NCBI GenBank assembly: GCA_020853775.1
Contig: JADYYH010000048.1
Location: 1-60,649 of the forward strand
Origin: Nitrospira sp.
Lineage (GTDB): Bacteria; Nitrospirota; Nitrospiria; Nitrospirales; Nitrospiraceae
Length of the DNA stretch: 60,649 nucleotides
Direction: 5' to 3'
Shown in pieces: positions 1,792 through 17,078 of the stretch. A program made the translations under genes and the position numbers. Under the pieces are notes generated by a model. That model saw only the letters and a program-made list of their open reading frames with translations. It made no database searches and was not told the DNA's origin. Numbering within the stretch: the first letter of the stretch is position 1; each line of letters opens with the position of its first letter.

Positions 1792-3762
1792 TCAGGGCAA
1801 CTGGCTGAGACGAAGCTGTCTGAGTGGAGACACTCGGTTGGCGTCCGGGAGACAAAGAGGCTGCTGGGTATCCCCGGAAGCCGACCGGCCAACGGCCGTG
1901 ACCTGTCGCTGTACGTAGGCGCATAATTCGCCGGTGAGCACCGAGCCATTCTTATCGAGATCGGCGGCGCCGCGCAGGCCCTTGAGTAGAAAATAGGTGA
2001 AGAGGCCATGTTGGCCGGGTTGATACGCCTGCGCTTCCTGCATGGTGGCGTTTCCCACCATCAGCAGCACACGCTCCTGGCCCCCGTTGGAGGCCTGCGA
2101 GATCCATTGCGGCTGGGCCACGCGAGCGGGATCTGAACCGGACGATGGCTCCAGAGACAGATCCAACATCACGACGGCTTGTTTGACGGGCGCGTTCGCC
2201 AACGCGCGCTCCAACCTGGACAGTGAAAAGGCGCGGGTCGATCCGGATACCGTCGCATCATACGGCAGCAGCGAAACGGCGCCCGTCTCGTGATCCACAA
2301 TGGCGCGGCCCGAGACATACACGTAGGCGGTGGTTTGCGGTCCCACCTGCTTGGGCAACCACTGTTCAAACACCTCGATCCAATCGTCTTTCAGTCCCTT
2401 GCCATCAAGCACCACTTTGACCTTCTGTGGCGGAATCCCCATCACAGACGTGAAGTACCCGCTTATGACTTCGGCATCGTGCGCGGCCAGTTTCATCGTC
2501 GGCATGGCCGGATCCCGGAACGCCCCCACTCCGATCGCGATCGCGACGGCATGCGGCTGTATGGGTTTCCCCTTTTTGTCGGGAAGTTGATCGACATCTA
2601 CCGACACGACTTCCGTGGCATCGGTCGCATCAGGCTTGATGGCCACGAAAAATTTTTTTGCGGAGGGAAGCACAACATTCGCTGCGGCCTGCAGGGCACA
2701 GACCAATTCCGCCTGCTCTGCCTCCGATACCTTGCCGACGGTACCTTCTACCGTCACGCGCCGAATTTCCCTAGGCTGCAACGACCCCACAGAGACTGGG
2801 GTTTTCACTGAGGCGACAATGGCAGGATGCCCACTGAGACTCACCTCGACGGCGTCGGCCGCAGTCGGCCCTTCGTTTTTGACTTCGAAATCCACGCTGA
2901 AGCGTTCATTCTGTTCCAAGACATGGTTTTGGTTCTGGTCTCGAAGAATGGTGCGGAATGACAGTTGAGTCGTACCGGGTGTGGCGGATGATGCCGTAGG
3001 GACACTTTCGGTCGCGGCTGCCACCGGCACCGACGCGCCCGGCACATTCGACGAAGGTACAGCAGGGAGAGAGGGAGGAGGCACCGGCACGACTGACCCA
3101 ACCTGGGCCGTCGTTCCGCGCTGAGTGGTTCTCAACTGGGCTTGTTCCCGGATTTTTGTGGCGGTGCCGAGCTGTTGCGCAACGCCTTCCACGACTGTGG
3201 CAATGACATCCTTAGCCACTTTATCGAGCCCGCTGATGTCACAGGTCTCCGCCCGCGCATCAACCTCGCCGGTGGTCACGCTCTGCAATTTTTTACTGTG
3301 CAGCACGGTCCCTTGCGGATCGGTGTATGCCACATCGAGTCCCAGTGTCACCGTGGCGGGATAGGACTTGTTCGCTTTGCGGGCGACAAACAGGTCGATC
3401 TGCCGAAGCCCTAATGCCACATCCACCACGCCGTCCAGCGTCTCGCTCGACGACTCTGGCTGAATCACCACGCGCTCGAATACCTGCTCCATCCGCTGCT
3501 TGAGTTCGGCCGCTAGCGGCTCATGAATGGGCAGTGTCACCGACTGCGCGCAGGCATTGTGATACTCCAAGGCTGCCGCACCGATGCTCTGGTCCAGACG
3601 CAGGAGCACCTTTAATGGAAGATTGTAATTCGTGGATATGTGACGCGGGCTAAAGTACTGGCATCCGGAAGACACAAGCACCGCCGCCATGAGCGCCGCA
3701 AGAGCACACTGGGACGACCGCCGAATGCGACATCTGATCCTACCGCCTATTAATCGCTGCAC
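1792..3762 (-). CDS. Lipoprotein with CARDB-like region and catalytically dead caspase-like domain
   Basis: About 656 residues from a GTG start. Residues 15-34 form a lipoprotein signal ending VSSGC (lipid Cys about 34). The middle contains a DQNQNHVLEQNE stretch leading into a CARDB-like beta domain (FEVKNEG...). The last 250 residues (from about 405) follow the caspase-like/peptidase C14 layout: AIGVGAF, LAAHDAEVI, YVYVSG, VVMLDL and a p10-like HGLFTYFLLKGL. However, the His-Gly motif reads SGR (about 484-486) and the Asp-x-Cys motif reads DLS (about 534-536), so both catalytic residues appear lost. DLDKNGSVLTGEL resembles an EF-hand loop. Likely a cell-surface or periplasmic scaffold or sensor; function unknown. 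The start is uncertain: the GTG lies right behind a -10 box, so it may be leaderless. Confidence 0.7.
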   Translation of the reverse strand: MQRLIGGRIRCRIRRSSQCALAALMAAVLVSSGCQYFSPRHISTNYNLPLKVLLRLDQSIGAAALEYHNACAQSVTLPIHEPLAAELKQRMEQVFERVVIQPESSSETLDGVVDVALGLRQIDLFVARKANKSYPATVTLGLDVAYTDPQGTVLHSKKLQSVTTGEVDARAETCDISGLDKVAKDVIATVVEGVAQQLGTATKIREQAQLRTTQRGTTAQVGSVVPVPPPSLPAVPSSNVPGASVPVAAATESVPTASSATPGTTQLSFRTILRDQNQNHVLEQNERFSVDFEVKNEGPTAADAVEVSLSGHPAIVASVKTPVSVGSLQPREIRRVTVEGTVGKVSEAEQAELVCALQAAANVVLPSAKKFFVAIKPDATDATEVVSVDVDQLPDKKGKPIQPHAVAIAIGVGAFRDPAMPTMKLAAHDAEVISGYFTSVMGIPPQKVKVVLDGKGLKDDWIEVFEQWLPKQVGPQTTAYVYVSGRAIVDHETGAVSLLPYDATVSGSTRAFSLSRLERALANAPVKQAVVMLDLSLEPSSGSDPARVAQPQWISQASNGGQERVLLMVGNATMQEAQAYQPGQHGLFTYFLLKGLRGAADLDKNGSVLTGELCAYVQRQVTAVGRSASGDTQQPLCLPDANRVSPLRQLRLSQLP

Positions 3763-3771
3763 AATAGTTTT

Positions 3772-3801
3772 GTTATACCCAATCTGGCGGAGACATAACA
3801 A
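3772..3801 (-). promoter_or_regulatory. Candidate promoter of the caspase-like lipoprotein gene
   Basis: TTGTTA (3801-3796), 18-bp spacer, TATAAC (3777-3772). The start point would be near 3765, almost on the GTG start at 3762, suggesting a leaderless mRNA. Confidence 0.4.
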
Positions 3802-3817
3802 CCGCCGGGCGCTCGCG

Positions 3818-3846
3818 TTGACAGGCTCTGTGTGCTTCGTTATGGT
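3818..3846 (+). promoter_or_regulatory. Promoter of ubiA
   Basis: Perfect -35 TTGACA (3818-3823), 17-bp spacer, -10 TATGGT (3841-3846). The start of transcription would fall near 3853, directly before a GTG at 3854, so the transcript may be leaderless. The ATG at 3842 lies inside the -10 box. Confidence 0.55.
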
Positions 3847-3853
3847 CCAACGC

Positions 3854-4756
3854 GTGATCTCTTCCCATGATTCAACCGAACGCGCCTCGCCCCCCTGGAC
3901 GTGGAGCGCCATCGCCGCTCTCATCCGCCTGGACAACCAATCCGGCACATTACTGCTGCTGCTGCCAAGCCTGTGGTCCCTGGTCTTGGCCAATCACGGT
4001 CACCCGCCATTCTGGTTGATTGCGACGTTCATCCTGGGCGCTTTTGTGATGCGGAGCCTCGGTGTGGTGTTCAACGACCTGGCAGACCGCAATTTCGACA
4101 AACATGTCGCTCGCACGAAAAATCGCCCATTGGCCGCCGGCCGCTTAGTCCCACACCAGGCTCTCTTCGTGGCGCTGGCGCTCGCCGTGGCGGCGGCAGG
4201 CCTCGTGGCCACACTCAACTGGCTGACCATACTCCTCAGCCCCATCGCGCTGTTCCTGGCCGCGCTCTATCCGTTTTGCAAACGATGGATTCAGATTCCA
4301 CAGGCCGTCTTGGGCATCGCGTTCGGCTGGGGAACCATCATGGCCTGGGCAGCTTCGTCCGGTACGATTGCGCCCGCCGCCTGGTGGTTATTTGCCGCCA
4401 CGACCTGCTGGGCAGTGGCCTACGATACGATTTATGCGCTGCAGGATCGCGAAGACGATCGCCGTATTGGAGTGAAGTCGTCGGCACTCCTGTTCGGGAC
4501 GTCGGTCCCGACGGCCGTCGGCCTGTTTTTGCTGGGGATGATCGCGTGTCTGATAGTTGTGGGACAGTTGGCTGGTCTAGGGATGGGATACTATGGTGCC
4601 TTGACGCTGCTGGCGGGGATGTTTCTCTGGCAAGCGCGGCGTCTACGGTGTCCCGTGACGCCGCCACAAGCCTTCACGATGTTTCAGCAGCACATCCTGG
4701 CCGGACTCGTGATTCTCATCACGCTGTGGATCAGCACGGCGAACGGGCTGCCCTAA
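3854..4756 (+). CDS. ubiA: UbiA-family prenyltransferase (4-hydroxybenzoate polyprenyltransferase-like)
   Basis: About 300 residues with roughly eight hydrophobic segments. The two Asp-rich motifs of the UbiA family are present: NDLADRNFDKHVARTKNRPL (first, binds Mg-diphosphate) and DREDDRRIGVKS (second). The enzyme joins a polyprenyl chain to an aromatic acid in the inner membrane, an early step of quinone synthesis; menaquinone- or haem-type UbiA relatives are possible alternatives, but the motif spacing and the KNRPLAAG context favour the 4-hydroxybenzoate branch. The start is ambiguous: GTG 3854 sits at the predicted transcription start, ATG 3842 is inside the -10 box. It is divergent from the lipoprotein gene and its end is 1 bp from the stop of the convergent respiratory operon. 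Confidence 0.85.
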   Translation: MISSHDSTERASPPWTWSAIAALIRLDNQSGTLLLLLPSLWSLVLANHGHPPFWLIATFILGAFVMRSLGVVFNDLADRNFDKHVARTKNRPLAAGRLVPHQALFVALALAVAAAGLVATLNWLTILLSPIALFLAALYPFCKRWIQIPQAVLGIAFGWGTIMAWAASSGTIAPAAWWLFAATTCWAVAYDTIYALQDREDDRRIGVKSSALLFGTSVPTAVGLFLLGMIACLIVVGQLAGLGMGYYGALTLLAGMFLWQARRLRCPVTPPQAFTMFQQHILAGLVILITLWISTANGLP

Positions 4757-4757
4757 G

Positions 4758-5771
4758 CTATTCCTCTCCGACTTTGCCGAGCGGCTTGTCGGGTTTCGGG
4801 GCACGGAGCGTTTTCAGATAGAGGGCCACGGCTTTGGCGTCGGCATCGTTCAGCCCCAGTGCCGGCATGCGCGTATCGGGCTTCATGGCTTGCGGATTTC
4901 GCAACCACCGATACACCCAGGTCGGGTTCAGCCGGTAGCCCGCTCGATCGAGCGCAGGACCAACCTTTCCGCCCTCTTCCCCGATCTTATGGCACCCGTT
5001 GCAGCCGTACTTCGTCACATAGAGCTGTTTGCCGATCTCCGTCATTTTCGCCGCCGCATCCGGCTTCATGCTGAGATCCGGACGGGCGATGTTGAGGCCT
5101 TTACCTGGTCTGGTGGTGAAGTTCGCGAGCGCAGCGGTGGCCTGATCGAGTTCCTTCTTGGCCTGCCCCATCGCCTGCACTTCCTTGGCATAGGCGTTAT
5201 CGTCGACTTCAACACCCTTCTTGTCCGCTTCGTCGCTGGCCTTCTTCTCGGCCTCCTGCTCCACACGTTCCGCCTCTGTATACTTTTGCTCGGCAGATTG
5301 CTTGGCCTCTTGGAGCTCTTTCTTGCGGCCTTCGACGTTGAATTCCAATTTTTTCCCGTGCAAGGAGCGCACGTATCCGACGATGCCCCAAATCTCTTCC
5401 TCTGACAGCGTGTACTTGAAGGTCGGCATGGTCGGCACGGCAAACTCATCGTCACCGATCTTGTCCCCGTTGGGGCTCGTGTCCTTCATGTCCCGCGAAA
5501 TCGTGGCGAAAATATCTTCGTCCTTGAACGTGCCCATTTCCGATTTGTTGGACAAATCCTTCGGTTTCGGGTCTGTCATCGAGGACCAATTGAACCCTTC
5601 ATTTTGCTTTCCGGTTTCGCCGTGACAGTGCATGCAGTAGTGCGCGTAGAGCTTCTTGCCCTTGGCGGATTGCTCATTTTGAAACATCGAACAACCGGCA
5701 CCGATGAGGCCCGAGAGGCCCACTACCCCGACGACCGCTCCAAAGACGCGTATTCTTCGCCACGCCCTCAT
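4758..5771 (-). CDS. Dihaem c-type cytochrome lipoprotein with central coiled coil
   Basis: 337 residues, last gene of the respiratory operon. Signal with a lipobox ending LIGAGC (lipid Cys 27). Haem motif CMHCH at 46-50 in the first cytochrome c domain, then about 90 highly charged residues (LQEAKQSAEQKYTEAERV...) predicted to be a coiled coil, then CNGCH at 257-261 with MPAL at about 302 as a possible distal Met ligand. It would carry electrons in the periplasm from a membrane anchor. The rod-like linker holding two haem domains apart is unusual and suggests bridging between complexes. The start at 5771 lies 2 bp after the stop of the upstream gene, pointing to translational coupling. Electron partner not determinable from sequence. 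Confidence 0.85.
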   Translation of the reverse strand: MRAWRRIRVFGAVVGVVGLSGLIGAGCSMFQNEQSAKGKKLYAHYCMHCHGETGKQNEGFNWSSMTDPKPKDLSNKSEMGTFKDEDIFATISRDMKDTSPNGDKIGDDEFAVPTMPTFKYTLSEEEIWGIVGYVRSLHGKKLEFNVEGRKKELQEAKQSAEQKYTEAERVEQEAEKKASDEADKKGVEVDDNAYAKEVQAMGQAKKELDQATAALANFTTRPGKGLNIARPDLSMKPDAAAKMTEIGKQLYVTKYGCNGCHKIGEEGGKVGPALDRAGYRLNPTWVYRWLRNPQAMKPDTRMPALGLNDADAKAVALYLKTLRAPKPDKPLGKVGEE

Positions 5772-5773
5772 GC

Positions 5774-6601
5774 TCACGACCCTTTCTTTAAACGTCTCAC
5801 GAGAGCCATCTCGAATCCCAACGCGAGGCCCACCGCGAGTAATGCGTACATGTACGGCGAATAGTCCGGCGGTGCATCGGCACGGAAATACCACCAGGAT
5901 GAAATCGCTTTTTCAGAACCCTTTTCTTTTGGCTGGCCGCTCTCCGTCTTTTTGCCGTCCCAGACAGCGAAGGCGATGCTGCCAAATTCCCCGGGCTTGA
6001 ATTGAGTATCTTCCGCAACATGCTCCGTGCTTAATGGCCGCGAGAAGACGACCTTCCACACGCCACCTTGGTAGACGCCCTTGGCCTTGACGTCCTGATG
6101 ACCGTGTGGCTTGAGCGTCCCGAAGCCCTTCGCGCCCAGGTCCGAACCCTTGCCGTCTTTATTTTTCCAGTACCAGATATTGACCGGGCCGCCCTCGACC
6201 TGCGCCATGGGCTGGCCGTGAGCGAAGTGCGCTTTGGTATCGCCAACCATGAACTCCAGGGCGGCTGCATCATCGGGATCTTCAGAAGGATCCGAATACT
6301 CGAGCAAGATGGCGACGTTGGTGCCATCGTGGAGGCCGCGAACCTTGACACTTTTCGCGGTCACATCTGTAATCCGAACCGGCCAGTGGACCTGAGGAGA
6401 CATGGGGAATTCAGACACGGAGGCAGTCGCCCATGCCGCGGCCGTGGGATCCTCAGCTGGAAGGGGGCCCTTCACAAGTCCCGCGCGCACTGCGACGCTC
6501 TGCTGACTATAGGCGGGCTGCACTTCAGCCGCCACGCACAGGCCTAGAAGGCCGACGGCTCCAACCCACCATCGCTTTCCTACTCTCCTCACTCGTGCCA
6601 T
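5774..6601 (-). CDS. Haem-b-binding gamma-subunit-like protein (ethylbenzene dehydrogenase/NxrC type) with C-terminal anchor
   Basis: 275 residues. Signal peptide (about 1-32, ending PAYSQ), a beta-rich body with motifs of the haem-binding gamma subunits of type II DMSO-reductase-family enzymes (LEYSDPSEDP, ALEFMVGD, GGPVNIWYWKNKDG, WKVVFSRPL), and a C-terminal transmembrane helix (about 248-268). In the family a Met and a Lys bind one haem b. In Nitrospira such domains are proposed as the gamma subunit of nitrite oxidoreductase. Here the gene sits inside a bc/bd-like operon without an NxrA or NxrB gene, so it may feed or receive electrons as an accessory of this respiratory complex. Identification is by motif only. 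Confidence 0.6.
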   Translation of the reverse strand: MARVRRVGKRWWVGAVGLLGLCVAAEVQPAYSQQSVAVRAGLVKGPLPAEDPTAAAWATASVSEFPMSPQVHWPVRITDVTAKSVKVRGLHDGTNVAILLEYSDPSEDPDDAAALEFMVGDTKAHFAHGQPMAQVEGGPVNIWYWKNKDGKGSDLGAKGFGTLKPHGHQDVKAKGVYQGGVWKVVFSRPLSTEHVAEDTQFKPGEFGSIAFAVWDGKKTESGQPKEKGSEKAISSWWYFRADAPPDYSPYMYALLAVGLALGFEMALVRRLKKGS

Positions 6602-6641
6602 ACGTTCCCCTTAATTGCTCAGCAATCTCTGATCGGAGACA

Positions 6642-7367
6642 TTATTCGGACTCATCCCAGGTTCTAGGTTTCTGCCCGGCTCCGTCATACTCGCCCATGA
6701 TGACTTTCCAGATGTCCTCATCGGACATTTCCAATTCCCATCGCGGCATGGCCGTCTTCCATGGCATCCCTTCGACAGGAAGGCCGACGCCTCCTTTTTT
6801 TATCCGCCAGAACAAATAACTTTCCTGCAACATGGCGATTGTCGTCGGATCCTTAAAGTTGGCGGGCGGCGGCGTAAACCCGGCAGCCGCGAATCCCTTG
6901 CCGTCGAAATTGCCGTGGCAAGGTGCGCAACGCGAGGCATACAAGCCTTTGCCATACATAATATTCTCCGGCGTCTTCGGTACCGGGTTGGAAAGTCCCG
7001 TGTATTCGCCGGGAGGCGCGGGGTGAATGGTGCGATTTTCACCGGGAGGTGCGTCGCTGGACGCCGTACTTCCGTACGTCTGCCATCCCACGAGCAGCGG
7101 GAATAATGCCAACACGAGATACCGGGCGCTGCTGAGCGCTCCGCCACTCTCCCCAGTCAGGAAGCGGAGAATAGGCTGAAAGAAGGCATCTTTCGACTCC
7201 CCGCTCAGGGTGGCAAACAACACTGAGCCGGACATTACCAGCATCAAGTACAGAAAAATCAAGCTGGAAGGCAGCGGCGCGCTATGCGGTAAGATCGGAA
7301 CAATAAATTTCAAAAACAAATAGATACAGACCGTGAGTATGATGGGTCTTATGAGTACGCCTCCCAT
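6642..7367 (-). CDS. Membrane-bound monohaem cytochrome c
   Basis: 241 residues. Three hydrophobic N-terminal segments (about 7-25, 32-55 and 80-98) anchor a periplasmic cytochrome c domain with CAPCH at 147-151 and possible Met ligands in GMPWKTAMPRW. The C-terminal half (ESYLFWRIKKGG, MPWK, EEDIWKV-like spacing) closely resembles the lipoprotein cytochrome that opens the operon (15707-16210), so the two are probably paralogues. Position 40 bp upstream of the gamma-like gene in the same operon points to electron transfer within the complex. Confidence 0.8.
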   Translation of the reverse strand: MGGVLIRPIILTVCIYLFLKFIVPILPHSAPLPSSLIFLYLMLVMSGSVLFATLSGESKDAFFQPILRFLTGESGGALSSARYLVLALFPLLVGWQTYGSTASSDAPPGENRTIHPAPPGEYTGLSNPVPKTPENIMYGKGLYASRCAPCHGNFDGKGFAAAGFTPPPANFKDPTTIAMLQESYLFWRIKKGGVGLPVEGMPWKTAMPRWELEMSDEDIWKVIMGEYDGAGQKPRTWDESE

Positions 7368-7397
7368 ACCTTCCTCCTCTACTTCACCGACAATAAC

Positions 7398-8018
7398 TTA
7401 TCGTGCCTGAGCCACCGCCATAGTGCCGGCGTCCGCTGCCTTCACCGGTGCCGGGGTGGCACGCGGGATGTCTAGTTCCGACGGGCTCACGCTGATCGGC
7501 TCACCGCTCATTTGCTGCAGGAATGCAATGACCGACAGGATCTCGTTCTTCGACAGACCGATCGGGTTTTTATTGATGTACGGCATACGCGCCGGATATT
7601 CCTTCGGGATCCCCTCATGCCGGTAGTCCAGGTAAAGGTAGGCCTGCGGTTCCGTCAAACTTTCAAAGATGAATTCCCGCGATAATTTGGCGCCGATCCC
7701 CTTCAAGTCCGGACAGCGGGCAGATTCGCTGGGCCCGATCGAATGGCACAGCGCGCACTGGCCTTTGCTGAAAAATATCTTTTGCCCGATCGTCGCCATG
7801 TCCGTCGCCGTCTTAATGTCGGCGATATTGATGCTCTCTTCCGCCGGAGGCAACGACGCCATCTGCGGGACGGCTAATGCGACCAGCGAGAATAATCCCA
7901 GGACGATCGCCACAAAGCCAATGACCCGAAGAAACTGCCCCTTGATGAAGAGCAGGATCACGACGCCCAGGCCGACTACGCACAGACCGATTAGCTGCAA
8001 TTTGACTACTTCACTCAT
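7398..8018 (-). CDS. Membrane-bound monohaem cytochrome c
   Basis: 206 residues. Two N-terminal transmembrane helices (about 8-26 and 30-50) followed by a cytochrome c domain with CALCH at 88-92; MPYI downstream may supply the distal Met. The tail is Ala/Pro-rich. It lies between the first bd-like gene and the next cytochrome gene in the operon, consistent with a subunit of the same membrane complex. No close named relative was recognised. Confidence 0.8.
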   Translation of the reverse strand: MSEVVKLQLIGLCVVGLGVVILLFIKGQFLRVIGFVAIVLGLFSLVALAVPQMASLPPAEESINIADIKTATDMATIGQKIFFSKGQCALCHSIGPSESARCPDLKGIGAKLSREFIFESLTEPQAYLYLDYRHEGIPKEYPARMPYINKNPIGLSKNEILSVIAFLQQMSGEPISVSPSELDIPRATPAPVKAADAGTMAVAQAR

Positions 8019-8084
8019 AAGTCCTCAACAAAGGATAATGATCGCGACCCACTCTTGATCGCCAGGAGAAGCCCCATTTCAGAA

Positions 8085-9965
8085 TCAGACCCGACCCTGT
8101 TGGTCTGATCGGTCGGCCACAGCACCATCCAAGGCTTGCGAGCCGCCCGCCATGGCCGGAATCCGGCCAGGCTCGGCCGACCCCTTCGCACTGGCTGCCG
8201 CCTTAGCCTTGTCTCCCATGGTGGCGACCCAGAAAATAAAGGCGACCAGCAGGCAGAACAAGAATGTATTCAGGGCCATCAGCGCAGCGGCATAGCCGAG
8301 CGCGGGCGAGAACGCATATTGGGAGGAATCGCGCATCACTCCGTACACGTGCCAATGGACACGTGACGAGGAGCGGGCATAACCCATCAGGGTCATCAGA
8401 AGGATGACCATCACCGCGTTCAACACCAGCGAATAACCGGCGCGAGGCGGCATTTTTCCCCAGACCATTTCAGTCGTGGTCTTGGCGCTTTTTAAGAGCA
8501 AGGCAGTGAGTGGCGTAATCGTGAGCATGACGAAGATCACGATGCCGACCTGCGAGGTCGAGAAGTAGTTGATGCGGATAATGGCTGGGACGAAATACCC
8601 CCAGACACCGAGCACGATGACAGCGAGTCCCGCTAGAACCAGCACAGCGCCCATGACTGATTTCGCGACCTTGGCCCAGCCAGCCGTATCTTCTTTGCCG
8701 GCGCGCCAGTACATGATGAAGCTCATAAACGTCACGAGCACCATCAAGTTCGACACCGTCATTTTGGCCGACATGACGCCGAACACACCCAGAAGCGGAT
8801 GGTGCGTGCCTCCCATTTTCTGAGCTTCTTCCAGACTGGCGACCAGTGAATGCGGCGTCATCCAGACCGCGAGGCACAGGAGGAGGATAATCAACATCGC
8901 CATGATCGGTTTGCGATATTGGCCCTCTGAACCAGGTATTCGATGCGTAATACCCATCCAGAAATAATAGTTCGATCCGAGGAACAGGACTCCGATGAGC
9001 ATGGCCTGCAGAATGAACAGCCAGGATAGGAATCCGCCCATGAGGGTGATGCCCATCTGTTGGTTGTATTGGTAAATTTCCCGCATCAGCCAATAGCCGG
9101 CAAAGGGAAGCGGCAAGAGCCCGAACACACCGATGAAGTTGCCAACGTAGCCCATCCAGTCATAGTGATAACGTTCTTCGGCGCTCTTGGCCGACAGGTA
9201 GCGAATGCCCGCATAGGCTCCGCAGATGTACCCCCCCAACACCACGTTTGCAATGATGCGATGAATGTTCACCGGCCACCAAGTGGGATTCCAAGTGGCA
9301 GCCCAGGCACGCTCAAAATCTGTTCCCTCGGCGATGACCACAGGGCTCGCCTGGAACGTCGCCCAGGAGTTCGGAACAATCATGATGAAGAAGGCGAAGA
9401 CGTTCAGGAGGAAGCCCAAGAAGATATGGAACTTCTTCCCATTGCCCTCGGACATCGCATCCCACCCGTACCAATACAGGTAGAGAGTGGCGGTTTCCAC
9501 GAGGAAAAGGCCGCAGTACACGAGGAAAGAGGGGAAGAAAATGTCAGTCAAATAGGCCATCAACTTCGGATAGAAGCCGATCAAGAGGAACAGCAGGATG
9601 CCACCGAACAAGGCGGTGGTGGCGTAGGACGACGTGAGGAGCTTGGTGAACTCCTTGGCGAGTTTATCGTAGCGCTTGTCACCGGACTTCCAGCCGACGA
9701 CTTCGCACAACCAGGCAAAAATCGGGACACCGAGCACAAACCCGGCAAGGAGGAGATGCAGTTGGGCGATGATCCACACCAGATTGCGGCTGCCGACATA
9801 AGGAAGATCCCGGTATGCGGTCGGCGCTTGAGTGGCCGCTTCCTGAGCCAAGACGGTGTCGGGGATGCCGATCCACCCCAGCAATGCGGCACATCCTGCC
9901 AAGAGAGCGGCGCGGCCCGCAATTCGGCCACCGTCATTCGTAATATGCAGCCCTTGGTCTATCAT
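8085..9965 (-). CDS. Cytochrome bd-like oxidase subunit I (CydA-like), large variant
   Basis: About 626 residues, around 14 hydrophobic segments after a signal peptide ending VLAQ. CydA-type features: AQLHLLLAGFVLGVP (His 70, like the high-spin haem b ligand), a Glu in LVETATLYLYWYGWD (157), PNSWATFQASP and NIHRIIANVVLGG (His 235, like the b558 ligand). No canonical Q-loop is recognised. It is longer than CydA and lacks an adjacent CydB. Such bd-like proteins are the proposed terminal oxidase of Nitrospira. A second paralogue is at 13938-15641. The start at 9965 was chosen for the GAGGTGGG ribosome-binding site; ATG 9989 is an alternative. Whether it reduces oxygen or only passes electrons cannot be told from sequence. 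Confidence 0.8.
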   Translation of the reverse strand: MIDQGLHITNDGGRIAGRAALLAGCAALLGWIGIPDTVLAQEAATQAPTAYRDLPYVGSRNLVWIIAQLHLLLAGFVLGVPIFAWLCEVVGWKSGDKRYDKLAKEFTKLLTSSYATTALFGGILLFLLIGFYPKLMAYLTDIFFPSFLVYCGLFLVETATLYLYWYGWDAMSEGNGKKFHIFLGFLLNVFAFFIMIVPNSWATFQASPVVIAEGTDFERAWAATWNPTWWPVNIHRIIANVVLGGYICGAYAGIRYLSAKSAEERYHYDWMGYVGNFIGVFGLLPLPFAGYWLMREIYQYNQQMGITLMGGFLSWLFILQAMLIGVLFLGSNYYFWMGITHRIPGSEGQYRKPIMAMLIILLLCLAVWMTPHSLVASLEEAQKMGGTHHPLLGVFGVMSAKMTVSNLMVLVTFMSFIMYWRAGKEDTAGWAKVAKSVMGAVLVLAGLAVIVLGVWGYFVPAIIRINYFSTSQVGIVIFVMLTITPLTALLLKSAKTTTEMVWGKMPPRAGYSLVLNAVMVILLMTLMGYARSSSRVHWHVYGVMRDSSQYAFSPALGYAAALMALNTFLFCLLVAFIFWVATMGDKAKAAASAKGSAEPGRIPAMAGGSQALDGAVADRSDQQGRV

Positions 9966-9993
9966 TGTTCCCACCTCGTCGTTCGCCATGATG

Positions 9994-11013
9994 TCATTTG
10001 CTTCCTGCCGGTTTCCCGGCGATTCCTTGCGAAGCCTTGCCGTCGCCCTTGGCGGAGCTCTCCTTGACACCGGCTTTTTCCTTGCCGCCCTTCGGCTTAT
10101 CTTTCTCGTCTTCAGCCGTCTTCTGTTCTAACGCGGCGATCTTTAGCTCCGCGTCCTTCAGCACCTTTTCCCCCTTAGAGAGAGATTTTTGAGGGTCAAA
10201 TGGGGCAACGGGGGCAACGCTGGCCGGCTTGCAGCATTCGTGGGGATGGGGGGTTGATACCGGAAGCACCATCCAGAACAGCACGCTCAGGACTGCCCCG
10301 GCCGCCGTGAAGGCCGTGAGCATCAGACTCTGATCCGCCGGCACCCGAATCATGTCCCAGCGGGAGATCAAGCCCTGATAACTGTCGCCTGAAGGCTGGG
10401 CTCCGGCCGTCCTCCCTTCGACCAACTTGCCGAGGATGGAGAGTCCGATAAAGGTGAGGGCCAGCAACACCAGCAGAGAGACACTGCCCCATGCGGTGAA
10501 TTCCAGGCCGATGCGTTCAGCGACCGGCATACTCTTCAACATATCCGTGTCGAGAATCGACTTCACGATCGAACGGGCGAGGTCGGTCGCTCCACCTTCA
10601 ACCACCCAGAGCAGCGGCAAGTACAACGCGCCGGCTATGGCGAAGCGGACCCATAAGGCCAACCCGAGTGAATCCGGCGGTTCGATCCGCAGCCGTTCAA
10701 GAAATACGGTGCGAGCCACGAGCCCCAAGGCCCAGATATCGATCGGGATGGACACCAGGAAGAGCAAGGGAAGTCCAGTGCCTTCACCGAAATGAAATCC
10801 AACTCCCATAGAAATGACAAAAAAGGCAAATACGCTCACCGGGCTCATGAGCAGCATCAGGAAAGTAATCCCGAGCTTGGTCTCCAGATGGATCGTGCCC
10901 ATCGCCATAAACAACATGGCGAACGCCATCTTGATCGGCAGGGCGGTCCAACAGGCAGGCCAGAGAATGCTCAGCCCTAATTTGAATGACGACATCGTCT
11001 CTCGACCAGTCAT
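9994..11013 (-). CDS. Unknown polytopic membrane protein of the respiratory operon
   Basis: 339 residues, not recognised. About seven hydrophobic helices fill residues 10-270, then an HPHECCKP motif that could bind metal or form disulphides, then a charged Lys/Glu/Gly-rich tail with a short coiled coil (LSKGEKVLKDAELKIAALE). No CydB, haem-copper or quinone motif was seen. A GGAGGG ribosome-binding site precedes the ATG at 11013. Wedged between cytochrome b and the large bd-like subunit, it is probably a structural or missing second subunit of the oxidase; this is inference from position. Confidence 0.7.
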   Translation of the reverse strand: MTGRETMSSFKLGLSILWPACWTALPIKMAFAMLFMAMGTIHLETKLGITFLMLLMSPVSVFAFFVISMGVGFHFGEGTGLPLLFLVSIPIDIWALGLVARTVFLERLRIEPPDSLGLALWVRFAIAGALYLPLLWVVEGGATDLARSIVKSILDTDMLKSMPVAERIGLEFTAWGSVSLLVLLALTFIGLSILGKLVEGRTAGAQPSGDSYQGLISRWDMIRVPADQSLMLTAFTAAGAVLSVLFWMVLPVSTPHPHECCKPASVAPVAPFDPQKSLSKGEKVLKDAELKIAALEQKTAEDEKDKPKGGKEKAGVKESSAKGDGKASQGIAGKPAGSK

Positions 11014-11031
11014 GTGCCCAAGACCCTCCGC

Positions 11032-12147
11032 CTATTCCAAAAATTCGCGGTTGATGATTGCCGCCACGGTGAAAATGAGAATGCTCGCCATGACCACAAT
11101 CCAGCTGATCAAGGCAATCGGCCGTTTAAAGATATTGCGTTCCGGGTCGCGATCAATGAACGGCAATGCCGCGAGCAAGGCCATAAAGACCCCGGGTAAT
11201 GCGATCGCGCCCAGGAACTGCCCGAATTCTCCCGCGAAGACTTTCAGACGTAACAGCTGAAACAGAAACAGGAAGTACCATTCCGGTTCAGGATGGTAGT
11301 CGCCGGGATCCGGAGTCGCTTCCTCCAGGAGCACGATCGGCTCCCAGAAGGCCAAGCTGCAGATGCAGAGGAACACGGCAACCATGCCGACAATGTCTTT
11401 CCAGATTTGTCGCGGAAAGAAATAATCGGTCTTGGCCTTGATCTCCTCGACGCTGCCGCGGAATGGACCGGCCGGTCCGGCTTTCCGGAACAGGAAGAGG
11501 TGTAAGCCGGCCAAGCCCATGAGCGCAGCCGGCAAGACCATGACGTGGATGACGAAGAAGCGGCTCAACGTCATCTGACCGGGCGTCGCTCCACCCTTCA
11601 GGAATCTGGCCATGAAGTCACCAAGCACCGGCGTCTTGTCCATGATTTCGACGCCGACAGTCGTGGCCCAATAGGCCCGCTGGTCCCAGGGAAGCAGATA
11701 TCCGGTGAAGCCGAATCCCATGACAATGCCGAATAAGGCCAAACCGACCAACCAGATAAGTTCGCGCGGCTTCTTGTACGCCCCCCAGAGAAAGACCTGG
11801 GACATGTGCGCAAAGACGCAGACCACCATGGCCGTGGAGCCCCAGAAGTGGTAACTCAGCAAAAACCAGCCGTAATCCACGGTATGAATGATGTACTGGG
11901 TGCTGGCGTAGGCATGGTCCGCGGTCGGCACATAATAGAACATCAACAGAATGCCGGTTACCGCCTGCATGATGAAGATGAAGAGCAACACCGAGCCAAA
12001 GACATAGGCCCATCGTGACCCGCCAGGGACAGGCTCGTTGAGCATTTTGGCTTGTAAAGTCTTCAGGCCGACGCGTTCGTCGACAAAGGCAAAGACTTTT
12101 TCAATGGCTGAGGGCTGCGTGGTCGTCGGCTGCGTAGTCGTATCCAT
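11032..12147 (-). CDS. Cytochrome b of a bc1/b6f-type complex
   Basis: 371 residues with about eight helices. Haem b ligands are visible as His100/His114 (HFWGSTAMVVCVFAH) and His201/His216 (HVMVLPAALMGLAGLH). The second pair has 14 residues between, as in b6-type rather than mitochondrial-type cytochrome b. The quinol-site motif PEWY is at 288-291, so both the haem-bearing part and the subunit-IV-like part are in one chain. It oxidises quinol and moves electrons to the Rieske protein and across the membrane. Its ATG overlaps the stop of the Rieske gene (TAATG), so the two are translationally coupled. Confidence 0.93.
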   Translation of the reverse strand: MDTTTQPTTTQPSAIEKVFAFVDERVGLKTLQAKMLNEPVPGGSRWAYVFGSVLLFIFIMQAVTGILLMFYYVPTADHAYASTQYIIHTVDYGWFLLSYHFWGSTAMVVCVFAHMSQVFLWGAYKKPRELIWLVGLALFGIVMGFGFTGYLLPWDQRAYWATTVGVEIMDKTPVLGDFMARFLKGGATPGQMTLSRFFVIHVMVLPAALMGLAGLHLFLFRKAGPAGPFRGSVEEIKAKTDYFFPRQIWKDIVGMVAVFLCICSLAFWEPIVLLEEATPDPGDYHPEPEWYFLFLFQLLRLKVFAGEFGQFLGAIALPGVFMALLAALPFIDRDPERNIFKRPIALISWIVVMASILIFTVAAIINREFLE

Positions 12148-13094
12148 TAGACAATCCGAACCTGGGCCTTAGTGCCCGCCTTGAATTCCATATCAATAAT
12201 GGTGATGTCACCGGTTGCCGTCACCTTGATGGGGAGGGGGTCCAACGGACGTGGAGCCGGTCCGTCCAAGACCTTCCCCCCGGCGTCGTAAATGCTGAGG
12301 TGACAGGGGCACAAAAAGACCTGCCCCAGCGTCTTATGGGTCCGCCATTTGAATCCGCAGCCCAAGTGCGGGCACTTTCCGGAATAGGCGATATAGGGAA
12401 CGTCCTTCTTGTTCGTCCAGATATGTTTCCCTGCGGAATCGCGGAACTCCATATCCTTGCCCTGATAGACCGTCTCCAACACCTTGGGAGTCGCCTTCAG
12501 AACCCAGACGTTTTTGTCGATTTCCTGTTCCGGCATGTACGCTTCTTTGATCTTGCGCTTGTACTTGAACTGGACACCGACATCGTCCTGCTTGATCTTT
12601 CCGGAGTTGCCGATCTTGAGCCATTCATTGTCAAACGGCGAATACATCGGCTTCATCAGATACCGCAGCACGGGGAAGGCAAGCGGGAAGCCAATCAGAA
12701 AACCGATGGCATGGGTAAAATTCGCGAAGAATGTCCGGCGCTTCACACTCCGTTCGAGTTCAGGAAACGGGACCAACACTTCGCCAGGCGTGACATGGAT
12801 CCTGTCTTCCAGGTGAGCAATTTCCACCTCATGAGTCGTCACGTACTCATCACGCTTGAAGACGGGCAAGGCGGCAAACTCGCCCAAGGTGCCGCGGAGC
12901 GTGACGACTTCATCACTGACTGCCTGCACCTGCCCCATGGGAACCTGGCGCTCGACTGTATCTGCCGTCCCCCCGCCCACGACGATATGACTGATTTCGT
13001 GGGAGAGCGGGTCCATAATGACCCTGCGCAGCTCCCCGACTTCACCGTCCGTACATCGAACTTTTGATTTGAGTTTCGGCTGCATGATACTCAC
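12147..13094 (-). CDS. PRC-barrel/Rieske [2Fe-2S] fusion protein
   Basis: 315 residues. The first about 100 residues (KVRCTDGEVGELRRVIMDP..., HIVVGGG) match a PRC-barrel fold, then a transmembrane helix (about 125-145, GFLIGFPLAFPVL), then a C-terminal Rieske domain with CPHLGC (241-246) and CPCH (262-265); C241/H243 and C262/H265 would bind the cluster and C246/C264 form the disulphide. It is the high-potential subunit taking electrons from quinol at the cytochrome b site. The N-terminal PRC-barrel on the cytoplasmic side is not part of classical Rieske proteins. The gene overlaps the preceding cytochrome gene by 4 bp and the cytochrome b gene by 1 bp. Confidence 0.92.
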   Translation of the reverse strand: MSIMQPKLKSKVRCTDGEVGELRRVIMDPLSHEISHIVVGGGTADTVERQVPMGQVQAVSDEVVTLRGTLGEFAALPVFKRDEYVTTHEVEIAHLEDRIHVTPGEVLVPFPELERSVKRRTFFANFTHAIGFLIGFPLAFPVLRYLMKPMYSPFDNEWLKIGNSGKIKQDDVGVQFKYKRKIKEAYMPEQEIDKNVWVLKATPKVLETVYQGKDMEFRDSAGKHIWTNKKDVPYIAYSGKCPHLGCGFKWRTHKTLGQVFLCPCHLSIYDAGGKVLDGPAPRPLDPLPIKVTATGDITIIDMEFKAGTKAQVRIV

Positions 13095-13897
13095 TTCATC
13101 TTGATCGGCTTCGGAGTATTCACCGAAGCGTTCTTGTATCCGGCCAACCAGGTCGCCAATGCATCCACGTCCTTGGGTTCCATCAGGTCCTTATACTTGT
13201 CGGGCATCTTGCCCTTCTCGTATTCCTGCTCGAACCCTTCCGCCTTGTAGCTCTTCGGATCGAGAATCTTTCTGGCGATTTCTGCTGCCGGCAGAAGGTT
13301 GCCGATATTATCCAGTTCAGGACCGCGCTTCTTTCCACCTTCGCCATTCAACTTGTGGCAGTTGTAACACTCCTGAAGCTGCCACTGTTCTTCACCCAAC
13401 TTGGCAATATCACCACTGGCCGCCGCCGTGGTGGCAGTCGGCGCACTGTCGCCGCCGGCCTTTTGGTCCGCAGGAGCCTGGGCCGCCCCTAACGCCTGCA
13501 AGCGAGCGGTCAACTCCTTAGCCTTTTCATCCAGCGCCTTGGCTCGCTGCATCAAGACTTCGACCTTGCCGGCCTCGTAGTGCTCGCGCTTCGGTTTGAG
13601 GATCTTTTCAATTTTGCCTTTTTCATCTTCGGGATCATATTGCGGCCACATCGAGGCACCGGCAATGTAGACCACGGAAAGGATGGCATAAAACACCAGC
13701 AGCGCCCCGACTGCCTTGACCCCGCCGAATGGCTTGAGCGTCGGAAAATCGAGGATCATAAAAACAATGGCGCCAAGCATGGCATAACCAAAAAACAGCG
13801 CCTGAAAGACGAACGGAAAGCCCAGCGCGTTGGTGGCGCCGAACAAAATTCCGCCGACAACGACTCCCACAACCAACTTTTTAATAATGTTTCCCAT
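13091..13897 (-). CDS. Membrane-anchored monohaem cytochrome c of the bc complex
   Basis: 268 residues. Three N-terminal hydrophobic segments (about 7-25, 30-50, 62-80), a coiled-coil stretch (about 98-138, KVEVLMQRAKALDEKAKELTARL) and an Ala/Thr-rich linker lead to a cytochrome c domain with CYNCH at 177-181; MPDKY may offer the Met ligand. It directly precedes and overlaps the Rieske gene (ATGA), so it probably takes the cytochrome c1/f position. A coiled-coil spacer also occurs in the operon's dihaem cytochrome. Confidence 0.88.
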   Translation of the reverse strand: MGNIIKKLVVGVVVGGILFGATNALGFPFVFQALFFGYAMLGAIVFMILDFPTLKPFGGVKAVGALLVFYAILSVVYIAGASMWPQYDPEDEKGKIEKILKPKREHYEAGKVEVLMQRAKALDEKAKELTARLQALGAAQAPADQKAGGDSAPTATTAAASGDIAKLGEEQWQLQECYNCHKLNGEGGKKRGPELDNIGNLLPAAEIARKILDPKSYKAEGFEQEYEKGKMPDKYKDLMEPKDVDALATWLAGYKNASVNTPKPIKMK

Positions 13898-13937
13898 GAA
13901 TGCCCTCGTTTACCGCCCTTCCAGTATGGTGACCGCC

Positions 13938-15641
13938 CTACTTGGCCCCTGCCGGAACCGGGCTTCCCTCGTGCGCGTGGCCCTTTGAATCAGAGGGGCG
14001 CAAGGTCACGATAATCGCGAAGCTGACCACTGCGTAAAAGACGATCGTAATGCCGGTGATCCACCAAGCTGAATAGGACAGCGTCGGCGTAAAGGATTCC
14101 GCCGTGAAATCCGGCAACAGGTTGTACGTATGGAAGTACTTCCGCAACAAGGAGCGCACGGCGCCCATCAGGCCCATCGTCCAAATCGCGCTGAACGCGA
14201 GGAACACCAGGACGAACTGCGAAGCAAAGTCGATCTTGCCCCACACAATGGTTCCCTGGGACACGGCCCGGTTGTAAATGACATAGTTCACAACCGTGAC
14301 GAAGACTAAGGTGAACGCCGCGGAATTTTTCGCCGGCATGAGCGCCAGGAAATTCCAATCAGACGGCAGCTCCAATTCGGCCACCAACTTCGCGCCGGTG
14401 GGCACGAATCCATGCGGCGTCATCCAGATGGCGTTGCCCACGACGACCATCAAGAAGCCGATCTTAATGACCGTGCTCGACGAGACCGTCAGCGGAATGA
14501 AACGTCCCAGGATGGCCGGTGCCAACAGAAGCGGGATGAGGAAGGCCAACGATGTGGGATCCGGCACAGGATAATCGGTCAGCACCTTCGTCATGACGAT
14601 CGGCAACAACACCATGACGATCGGCGCGACCACCGTCATGCGAACCCGCTCCACCCCCTCGATCCGCTTCATACTCAGCCAAATATAGTAATTGCTGGCG
14701 AGGAAGATGAGACCGATCATGGCCCCTTGCATCTCAAAGAACATCGATAATTGATCCGCCATCATGTAGGGGCAGATGGACGCGTCGTAGTCACAGAGCT
14801 CGTAGGCCAGCAAGTAGCCCATGAACGGCAGGAACAACAACGCACCCACGCCGATCATGTTGCCGACAAAGCCCATCCAATCGTAATACGCCCGATCCTC
14901 TTCCTTCTTGGACCCCATGAACATGTAGGCGGCAATCAGCCCCGCCACGAATCCACCGAAGGTCACGTTGCCCACGAGTCGATGCAAATTGAGCGGCATC
15001 CAGCTGTAGTTGAAGACCTTGTCCCAAAGAGAGGCAGTCGCCAAAAACTCGGCCGGGGAAATACCTTCCGCTCGGACCGGCGTGTTCATGAACGAGGTCG
15101 GCGCATCGATGACAAACAGCGTGATGGAGCCGATGAGATTCAGCAGCACGCCCAACGCAATGTGGCGCCCTTTCTTTTCACCCTTCCAGGCATCCCATGT
15201 GTAGAAGTACATGTAGAGAACGATGGTTTCGCCGATGAACAAGAGCGGATAGACCACGGCGAAAATCAGGAAGAAGTGATTGATGAGCCAGGTCGTAAAC
15301 TGCGGATAGGTTGCCAGCAGCACGAAGATGAAGAGGCCGCCCGTCAAGGCCGTCATGCTGTACAGGATGACCGTGACCTTGGTGACCTCTTTGGCCAGCC
15401 GGTCATAGCGGGGATCCTGCTTGCGATATCCCAGCCACTCCGAGATGACTACAAAAATCGGAGCGCCCAAAATAAATCCCGCAAAGAGAATGTGGAGCTG
15501 AGCGACGATCCATACCGCCGTGCGATTCCCGGTGTAAGGGAACTCCACGGGGGGCGCACTGGGAGCCTGGGCATAGGCCACTCCTCCCAATACCGCCACT
15601 AGCGCGAACATAACCAACAAACAGCGCTGCCAGATTTTCAT
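13938..15641 (-). CDS. Cytochrome bd-like oxidase subunit I (CydA-like), smaller paralogue
   Basis: 567 residues, signal peptide (about 1-25, ending AYAQ) and about 13 helices. It shares the architecture of the 626-residue protein downstream: WIVAQLHILFAGFILGAP (His 50), FIGETIVLYMYFYTWD (Glu 138), APTSFMNTP, NLHRLVGNVTFGG (His 220) and IWMTPHGFV. It carries an extra Cys pair in ELCDYDASIC on a loop. It is either a second oxidase unit or the partner that takes the CydB place in a heterodimer of two CydA-like chains. It lies between the leading lipoprotein cytochrome and the bc genes. Confidence 0.8.
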   Translation of the reverse strand: MKIWQRCLLVMFALVAVLGGVAYAQAPSAPPVEFPYTGNRTAVWIVAQLHILFAGFILGAPIFVVISEWLGYRKQDPRYDRLAKEVTKVTVILYSMTALTGGLFIFVLLATYPQFTTWLINHFFLIFAVVYPLLFIGETIVLYMYFYTWDAWKGEKKGRHIALGVLLNLIGSITLFVIDAPTSFMNTPVRAEGISPAEFLATASLWDKVFNYSWMPLNLHRLVGNVTFGGFVAGLIAAYMFMGSKKEEDRAYYDWMGFVGNMIGVGALLFLPFMGYLLAYELCDYDASICPYMMADQLSMFFEMQGAMIGLIFLASNYYIWLSMKRIEGVERVRMTVVAPIVMVLLPIVMTKVLTDYPVPDPTSLAFLIPLLLAPAILGRFIPLTVSSSTVIKIGFLMVVVGNAIWMTPHGFVPTGAKLVAELELPSDWNFLALMPAKNSAAFTLVFVTVVNYVIYNRAVSQGTIVWGKIDFASQFVLVFLAFSAIWTMGLMGAVRSLLRKYFHTYNLLPDFTAESFTPTLSYSAWWITGITIVFYAVVSFAIIVTLRPSDSKGHAHEGSPVPAGAK

Positions 15642-15706
15642 GATGTCTCGCCGCTCCTCCTCATTCCTACCGATTGACCCATGACTCGAACCGAACCAGA
15701 CGCGAA

Positions 15707-16210
15707 TTACTTCACCTGGTCAGCAGGCACCCAGTCCTTTTTATTTGTATCCCAGCCCTTGCCGGACAAGCCGAACGAGCGCTCGAACGCCAAAATCTTC
15801 CAGCGATCTTCTTCGGACAACTTGCTCTTCCACGGCTTCATTTTCGTGTTCGGCACGCCCTCAGAAATACGCCAGAACCAGACCGAATCCGAATACAGCT
15901 TCATGCGGTCGCCGTTGCGGAAGTCGCGAGCCCCGGCCTTGACCGGCTTGCCATCCTTGCCGTGGCAGCTGGCGCAATTGACGTCCGGATTCTTGCCGCC
16001 GATGTACAACTCCTTGCCCTCTTCCAGGATCTTCGGGTCGGTCCACCAACCGGCAGGCATATGCTTGTCGGCATACTCAGCAGGGGCAGGGGGTGGCGGA
16101 ACAACCGGGCCTTCGCCGCCGCCTTCACCGCCACCGCATCCGACGACACCAAACCCAAAACCAAGAATGCCGACCATCAGAGCCAATCTCTTCATGCCTG
16201 CTTGTTTCAT
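15707..16210 (-). CDS. Monohaem cytochrome c lipoprotein, first gene of the respiratory operon
   Basis: 167 residues. Lipoprotein signal ending GVVGC (lipid Cys 25), a Gly/Pro linker, then a cytochrome c domain with CASCH at 79-83 and possible Met ligand in NTKMKPWKSKL. The C-terminal half parallels the membrane cytochrome at 6642-7367. The ATG at 16210 was chosen because AAAGGAGC lies 13 bp upstream and the frame upstream looks non-coding; ATG 16195 is an alternative. As first gene after a terminator it marks the operon start. Confidence 0.85.
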   Translation of the reverse strand: MKQAGMKRLALMVGILGFGFGVVGCGGGEGGGEGPVVPPPPAPAEYADKHMPAGWWTDPKILEEGKELYIGGKNPDVNCASCHGKDGKPVKAGARDFRNGDRMKLYSDSVWFWRISEGVPNTKMKPWKSKLSEEDRWKILAFERSFGLSGKGWDTNKKDWVPADQVK

Positions 16211-16421: not shown

Positions 16422-17078
16422 CTATTTCTGCCGCTTGCCCTGTCCCTTCTTTCGCCGTTGCTCTTCTCGCATCCGCTTGCGGGAGATCTTTAGCCCAATC
16501 CATCCCACAATAGCAACAGCCGCGACCCCCAGCCCGTACAACAACCACTGCGGAGGACCAAGATCGCGCTCGCACCCACTTCCGAAATCAACTCGAAGCT
16601 TACGTTCCGTCTCCAGATCGTTCGGGTCGAACTGGATCTTAAAATTCTTCTGCTCCCCGCCAACTTCGACCAACAGCGGGTCGCCGACGTTATCATTATG
16701 CAGATGCAGAGTGACCTTATAGTATCCGTCACCGTCCGTCGTCACAGTCTGGCCGACCGTGATTCGCGTATCCTTGACCAGCACCTCGACATTGACGGCG
16801 GGCCGACCATCCTTGCCGCACACAAACCCTTCGACGGTAAATCGATGGTCGGCGGCATGACTCGCAAACAGGATCGACGGCACACACAATGTCGCGATCA
16901 GACCCCAAACCAGCACGAAATGCCAGGCGGTATTCTTACTAATCGCTCTCCGCCCTCGCATACGTTCGATCCGTGTCGGACTGCGTTTCAGCCTCACAAA
17001 CATCCCGTCCAGAGCCTGTTTACGAGAGGCTTCCTCGACACGGACTCGCCCCAAATTTGAGGCCGACTCTTCTAGCAT
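16422..17078 (-). CDS. Membrane protein with carboxypeptidase-regulatory-like domain, unknown role
   Basis: 218 residues from ATG 17078, which has a GAGGGG ribosome-binding site. A hydrophobic signal segment lies at about 52-72, followed by a beta domain (FVCGKDGRPAVNVEVLVKDT, TTDGDGYYKVTL) of the carboxypeptidase-regulatory/CNA-B-like fold, then a C-terminal helix (about 183-203) and a basic tail. So the beta domain is periplasmic, held by the C-terminal anchor. The long N-terminal extension before the signal makes a later start (ATG 17003 or 16961) possible; a TTGACA just upstream with TAGAAG inside the first codons supports this. No function recognised. A terminator follows it. Confidence 0.65.
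   Translation of the reverse strand: MLEESASNLGRVRVEEASRKQALDGMFVRLKRSPTRIERMRGRRAISKNTAWHFVLVWGLIATLCVPSILFASHAADHRFTVEGFVCGKDGRPAVNVEVLVKDTRITVGQTVTTDGDGYYKVTLHLHNDNVGDPLLVEVGGEQKNFKIQFDPNDLETERKLRVDFGSGCERDLGPPQWLLYGLGVAAVAIVGWIGLKISRKRMREEQRRKKGQGKRQK

Follow-up and report, generated by a model that had tools for sequence, protein, structure and literature searches.

The eleven genes studied here, which join a b6-type bc complex to two CydA-like chains on a contig of Nitrospira sp., form a row that is collinear across the order Nitrospirales and is nevertheless separable into two modules; this separability is what is new here. Gene content across relatives suggests a split into module A (c1, CydA1, c2, the Rieske protein, cytochrome b, and mem6) and module B (CydA2, c8, c9, the gamma-like subunit, and c11). 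The cluster itself, by which Nitrospira would pass electrons from nitrite on to oxygen, and the idea that its products form a supercomplex are already known from the literature. We slightly favor an explanation in which two modules stand side by side, a cytochrome c-fed bd-like oxidase (module B) and a reversible b6-type bc module with CydA1 as its dedicated partner (module A). Nitrospira are among the main nitrite oxidizers on Earth, and the papers cited here report no isolated terminal oxidase from them; the module split makes the roles of the individual chains directly testable.

In the window, by which we mean the whole 60,649-nucleotide stretch of DNA that was analyzed, the eleven ORFs called on the contig occupy 16210 to 4758 of the minus strand, and no gap between them exceeds 66 bp (Table 1). 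From c1 to c11 these gaps are 65, 40, 5, -1, 36, 4, 66, 30, 40, and 2 bp, although alternative starts change several of them: a GTG start turns the 5-bp gap between c2 and the Rieske gene into a 4-bp overlap, cytochrome b and mem6 lie either 36 or 18 bp apart, and gamma and c11 are separated by 2 bp or overlap by 4 bp. Small overlaps between genes thus number one to three, depending on the start codons. The initial annotation had described a closely spaced, one-strand row of eleven genes, and this description holds, as does its parts list, since domain searches agree on five cytochromes c with six CxxCH motifs, a Rieske protein, two CydA-like chains, and a gamma-like protein. The membrane protein that it could not place, mem6, likewise has no match in Pfam or NCBIfam. 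The two CxxCH motifs of c11 lie at residues 87 and 298 of the longest ORF; c11 belongs to module B in most relatives. An RBS-like AAGGAG precedes the ATG of c1 at 16210, and a promoter scan found no promoter-like site on the operon strand, with matches no more frequent than in shuffled sequence.

Two neighbors of the row deserve mention. Upstream of c1 lies a candidate twelfth member, whose product combines a CarboxypepD_reg-like domain with a predicted export segment and a hydrophobic helix at the C terminus; its position ahead of c1 is kept in most order loci, in class loci, and in f4. The same protein carries an HxxDHRF-type motif, and a relative of it adjoins a different bc cluster in one locus (L110). 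At the other end, a UbiA-family prenyltransferase gene (3689-4756) converges on the operon with the stop codons 1 bp apart and is kept at the same place in most order loci; a link of this gene to methyl-plastoquinone synthesis is possible.

Table 1. Genes of the row and the upstream candidate member, in order of transcription, with positions in the window
Feature	Position	Strand	Description	Evidence	Module or remark
c1	15707..16210	-	Monoheme cytochrome c, apparent lipobox	PF13442 E 1.8e-8; one CxxCH	Module A, first gene
CydA1	13938..15641	-	CydA-like chain 1, bd-like_1 type, about 12 TM helices	PF01654 E 2.8e-23	Module A
c2	13091..13897	-	Membrane-anchored monoheme cytochrome c, about 3 TM helices	PF00034 E 5.7e-10; one CxxCH	Module A
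Rieske	12147..13094	-	Rieske protein, one TM helix	PF00355 E 2.1e-8	Module A
Cytochrome b	11032..12147	-	b6 and subunit IV parts in one chain	PF00033 E 6.6e-48; PF13631; PF00032 E 8.5e-9	Module A
mem6	9994..11013 (start maybe 10995)	-	Membrane protein without known family	No Pfam/NCBIfam match	Module A
CydA2	8085..9989	-	CydA-like chain 2, NIDE0901/bd-like_2 type	PF01654 E 1e-17	Module B
c8	7398..8018	-	Membrane-anchored monoheme cytochrome c	PF00034 E 1.6e-7; one CxxCH	Module B
c9	6642..7367	-	Membrane-anchored monoheme cytochrome c	PF13442 E 5.1e-9; one CxxCH	Module B
gamma	5774..6601	-	Heme-b gamma-like subunit, one C-terminal TM helix, alt_NxrC_1 type	EB_dh PF09459 E 4.2e-21	Module B
c11	4758..5777 (GTG 5777 or ATG 5771)	-	Diheme cytochrome c, apparent lipobox	PF00034 E 3.4e-19; two CxxCH	
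Candidate twelfth member	16422..17078	-		PF13620 26.9 bits, below cutoff	211 bp upstream of c1

Across the 22 Nitrospirales loci sampled, from three families, the eleven genes are collinear (20 sampled first, of which L094 ends before c11, together with L209 as a whole and L211 over the part that its contig covers), and this collinearity rules out chance or an assembly artifact as its source. A CydA2 match was found in all 147 genomes of the order, and the best match is an orthologue with at least 72% identity except in the family f4, some incomplete genomes, and one further genome (G103). Beyond the order, class relatives keep the same gene order in L099-L101 and L104, and in L102 up to the end of its contig.

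The two modules separate in f4, in f42, and in class relatives. The three f4 loci (L214-L216, in genomes G021, G027, and G024), which belong to a Nitrospirales family, contain c1, CydA1, c2, the Rieske protein, cytochrome b, a short mem6, c8, and c11, and searches of these genomes, all MAGs that are 73-96% complete, recovered no CydA2, no COX1, and no CydB anywhere. If f4 respires O2, then CydA1 or the bd3-type chain would have to carry this out. A search of f4 for a long NxrA-type ORF found none; TIGR03479 is only a rough guide as a marker for nitrite oxidoreductase, giving no match above cutoff in 13 of 13 genomes searched. The reverse situation is found in L105 and L108-L111, where the genes of module B, to the extent that each contig covers them, occur without CydA1 and without this bc module, and in L113 and Manganitrophaceae-like loci, where an Mrp-linked module B occurs without module A. 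The best CydA1 matches in three genomes (G344, G288, and G261) are only 38-45% identical, which is the level of other CydA-like chains, and every CydA1 observed lay next to the bc genes. One genome (G324) carries modules A and B on separate contigs (L103 and L218), and in six loci (L098, L104, L105, L109, L110, and L113) c8 is fused to CydA2. Genomes with module B only often contain other CydA-like chains, as in L105, so CydA2 may need some CydA-like partner.

A further separation occurs within an otherwise intact row. In Nitrospira sp. RCA (SPAW01000080, L098/L129), the place of CydA2 and c8 is taken by a CydA2-c8 fusion with two PF00361 (Mrp/NuoM-like) subunits behind it (E 6.2e-58 and 6.5e-41), and the remaining operon genes hold their order; in Nitrospira sp. 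RSF151 (L133) these parts recur in a different arrangement. In our tree, which is a quick search, CydA1 sequences form one clade (support 99) and the CydA1 of RCA falls inside the Nitrospirales clade, whereas the CydA2 of RCA clusters with a Nitrospinae MAG sequence (support 97), and that of RSF151 lies outside the Nitrospirales clade (support 100). MAG contigs may be chimeric, yet L098, L104, L130, and L133 agree. Taken together, CydA1 without CydA2 in f4, CydA2 without CydA1 in class relatives, and this in-place swap argue against an obligate CydA1/CydA2 pair and suggest two separable machines in place of one oxidase made of a CydA-like pair.

The fusion with two Mrp/NuoM-like subunits is found in L098:9019-16096, L129, L133:2892-9668, L130, and L131, representing two Nitrospira and two Nitrospiria MAGs. 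Mrp-linked CydA2 clusters also occur outside Nitrospirota, in L157 (FO_Gamma_078.1), L135 (Nitrospinae), and L134 (an Omnitrophica MAG). The published TO_2, which has two such subunits, was described as restricted to Manganitrophaceae (PMC9040806), yet TO_2-like loci are also present in Nitrospira, in Nitrospinae, and in a gammaproteobacterial MAG. We rejected Mrp1/Mrp2 as an oxidase-specific marker, as most matches from other phyla are embedded in gene rows with several NuoL/M/N-like members, which probably represent 2M-type complex I. The RCA genome carries an AMO match (amoA). It is conceivable, if somewhat doubtful, that CydA1 is a dedicated subunit of a new bc architecture and not half of an oxidase, and that CydA2-c8 is an exchangeable oxidase cassette whose place in some Nitrospira, including the MAG with amoA, has gone to a version with two ion-translocating subunits of the Mrp type, possibly an ion-pumping CydA-type oxidase.

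Alignment of both CydA-like chains with 15 canonical CydA sequences (MAFFT and hhalign) shows which features of a cytochrome bd are left. The equivalents of H19/H186 are kept as H50/H220 in CydA1 (no variation in 25 sequences) and as H78/H243 in CydA2 (no variation in 32 sequences). The quinol-loop residues K252/E257, present in 15 of 15 canonical sequences, are replaced by I289/M294 in CydA1 and M312/M317 in CydA2 and are replaced in every CydA1- or CydA2-type sequence aligned; E99 and E445 are replaced in both chains as well. The M393 equivalent is ambiguous, with MAFFT placing an invariant Met there and hhalign not doing so. The OR-N chains have new invariant histidines, H504 in CydA1 and H547 in CydA2, and a nearly invariant WMTPH motif, and an HH pair at 396-397 is found in CydA2 only and not in CydA1. 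The loss of the quinol-loop residues, E99, and E445 from both chains makes direct quinol oxidation unlikely, and with the quinol loop gone we rejected the reading of either chain as a quinol oxidase; the route from quinol straight to the CydA-like chains that had been envisaged from the window is not supported, given the replacement of K252/E257 throughout the alignment. A structural model of CydA2 (mean pLDDT 71) has the CydA fold across residues 57-615 and matches CydA 9r2g_A with a Z score of 24.2 over 341 residues. CydA structures as a whole score Z 20.7-24.2, and the next family is alternative complex III (ACIII) at about 12 to 15.3. As retained and lost ligands are identical in the two chains, sequence cannot pick the one that reduces O2; CydA2 is the best candidate for the O2-reducing subunit.

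The bc genes of module A justify the b6-type label given to them initially. Cytochrome b (371 aa) unites the b6 and subunit IV regions in a single polypeptide and has its histidine pairs at H100/H114 and H201/H216, the second with a spacing of 15, and a PEWY motif at 288. Its only cysteines are 110, 261, and 263, so heme cn is ruled out by the lack of a Cys at the heme cn position (Cys35 of b6), and none of the eleven products matches a cytochrome f family in Pfam or NCBIfam. The Rieske protein has its ligand motifs at 241 (CPHLGC) and 262 (CPCHLS) and about 120 extra N-terminal residues, in which a PRC-barrel match is weak and not significant. None of the six CxxCH motifs, the four histidines of cytochrome b, or the Rieske ligands varies among the relatives aligned. 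The protein mem6 occurs order-wide; its N-terminal helices are restricted to the order, while a C-terminal piece with a single TM helix is also present in class relatives, whose identifiable mem6 ORFs are reduced to 91-94 aa. The weak mem6 model (pLDDT 70) gave no fold match in a structure search; the reading of mem6 as a CydB is not supported, with an M. smegmatis bd chain (9r2g_D) ranked third at E 1.9 and TM 0.18 for this weak model.

Other oxidase genes lie outside the window. The initial annotation had noted neither CydB nor a heme-copper oxidase, which is correct for the window, where no COX1 or CydB was found; for the heme-copper oxidase it does not extend to the genome, which has a single COX1 at C56:639-1889, a fused cbb3 of 955 aa with three CxxCH. 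The locus of this fused cbb3 spans G000:C56:597-3464 (L008), and COX1 is absent in ten related genomes searched, so C56 may be a mis-binned contig. This fused cbb3 resembles the one described in Nitrospina gracilis. No CydB above cutoff was found genome-wide, with one weak match of 37 positions on C63. There are four PF01654 genes in the genome, two in the row described here and two on contig C17. The latter are part of a second bd-like region (G000:C17; L006, L007) with two CydA-like chains of the bd-like_3/4 type; it also encodes cupredoxin-like proteins and an EB_dh protein in which CxxCH occurs twice.

If the two-module explanation is correct, module A would be a b6-type quinone:cytochrome c oxidoreductase with CydA1 as its dedicated membrane partner, and module B would be a CydA-type oxygen reductase fed by cytochrome c. 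Electrons from nitrite would leave a periplasmic nitrite oxidoreductase and enter at the gamma heme b and the cytochromes c, from where most would pass to CydA2 and O2, while a fraction would be driven in reverse through module A and reach methyl-plastoquinone, in support of CO2 fixation. A reverse complex III working with methyl-plastoquinone (+57 to +59 mV) has been described (PMC12324825). We infer O2 reduction by CydA2, the direction of electron flow, the physical association of the products, and the role of CydA1.

The strongest competitor, which we would put at somewhat less than even chances, is that all eleven products form a III-IV supercomplex that docks a periplasmic nitrite oxidoreductase via gamma and channels its electrons toward O2. 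Such an assembly fits the conserved collinear order and the tight gene spacing, as well as the strong expression of the entire region in N. moscoviensis (PMC6606698), yet operon order speaks for co-regulation and not for a complex, and the modules come apart in the lineages named above. The two-module reading would be compatible with a supercomplex if the modules bind each other. Thus, the supercomplex originally proposed for this DNA survives in part: one conserved locus does join a b6-type bc complex to CydA-like chains, consistent with a III-IV supercomplex, but the quinol route and the obligate pair are not supported.

Two other explanations assign the chains differently. CydA1 and CydA2 could form a CydAA' heterodimer of the OR-N type, with the bc genes mere neighbors that supply cytochrome c. 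This pairing of OR-N1 with a NIDE0901-like OR-N2 is a published hypothesis (PMC12342949, PMC10839748), and both chains do share one operon across the sampled order except in f4. We nevertheless consider it unlikely, as CydA1 keeps to this bc module even in f4 where CydA2 is missing, many class relatives have CydA2 without CydA1, and a foreign CydA2 was swapped in while CydA1 remained native. Less probable still would be that O2 is reduced mainly by CydA1, with a direct connection to the bc complex, and that CydA2 serves another acceptor or donor. The f4 genomes, with CydA1, c1, c2, the bc genes, c8, and c11 but no CydA2, COX1, or CydB, point in this direction, and CydA1 has kept the H19/H186 equivalents and an OR-N-specific invariant His; on the other hand, the f4 MAGs are incomplete and yielded no long NxrA-type ORF, genomes with module B but no CydA1 exist, and the literature favors CydA2 (NIDE0901).

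Compared with known systems, the row shares features with several and agrees with the published description of one. Both CydA-like chains have the H19/H186 equivalents of the canonical cytochrome bd quinol oxidase CydAB, and the CydA2 model has the CydA fold; in contrast to CydAB, the row lacks CydB, has lost K252, E257, E99, and E445, and carries additional TM helices where CydAB has the Q loop. With the cytochrome b6f complex it has in common the b6-type histidine spacing, PEWY, and a Rieske protein, but b6 and subunit IV are fused, the heme cn Cys and cytochrome f are missing, and membrane cytochromes c and CydA1 are found instead. The gamma subunit resembles those of type II DMSO reductases (NxrC/EbdC), with the EB_dh domain above cutoff (PF09459, 76.5 bits against 33.3), TIGR03477 below it (104.8 against 169.85), and matches to NxrC 7b04_C and EbdC 2ivf_C. 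TO_2 of Candidatus Manganitrophaceae is similar in combining a CydA2-type chain with c and b cytochromes, and the swapped Nitrospira versions L129 and L133 also share its two MrpD-like subunits, whereas the version in the window lacks Mrp subunits and adjoins CydA1 and the bc genes (PMC9040806). The CydAA' oxidase proposed for the order from OR-N1 and NIDE0901-like OR-N2 likewise has two CydA-type chains encoded together, no CydB, and a lost quinol loop, and its proposed electron donor is cytochrome c (Murali 2021, as cited in PMC12342949 and PMC10839748); the difference is that CydA1 and CydA2 come apart in relatives, so the pair is not obligate.

The closest likeness is to N. moscoviensis, in which Mundinger et al. 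2019 described the CIII_1 core genes, two bd-like oxidases, several cytochromes c, and alt_NxrC_1, found the whole region to be strongly transcribed, and suggested a III-IV supercomplex (PMC6606698). In that set, the terminal oxidase and alt_NxrC_1 are separated by two cytochromes c, which correspond to c8 and c9 in the window, and alt_NxrC_1, like the window gamma, is a 30.5-kDa protein with a single TM helix (PMC6606698). Likened through this published description and not through sequence, the CIII_1/bd-like_1/bd-like_2/alt_nxrC_1 set of N. moscoviensis showed no difference from the row (PMC6606698). The combination of two CydA-like chains with a complete bc module and a gamma-like subunit, singled out at the start as the unusual part, is order-wide and already described, and, judged by the published descriptions, the window is a member of a known locus.
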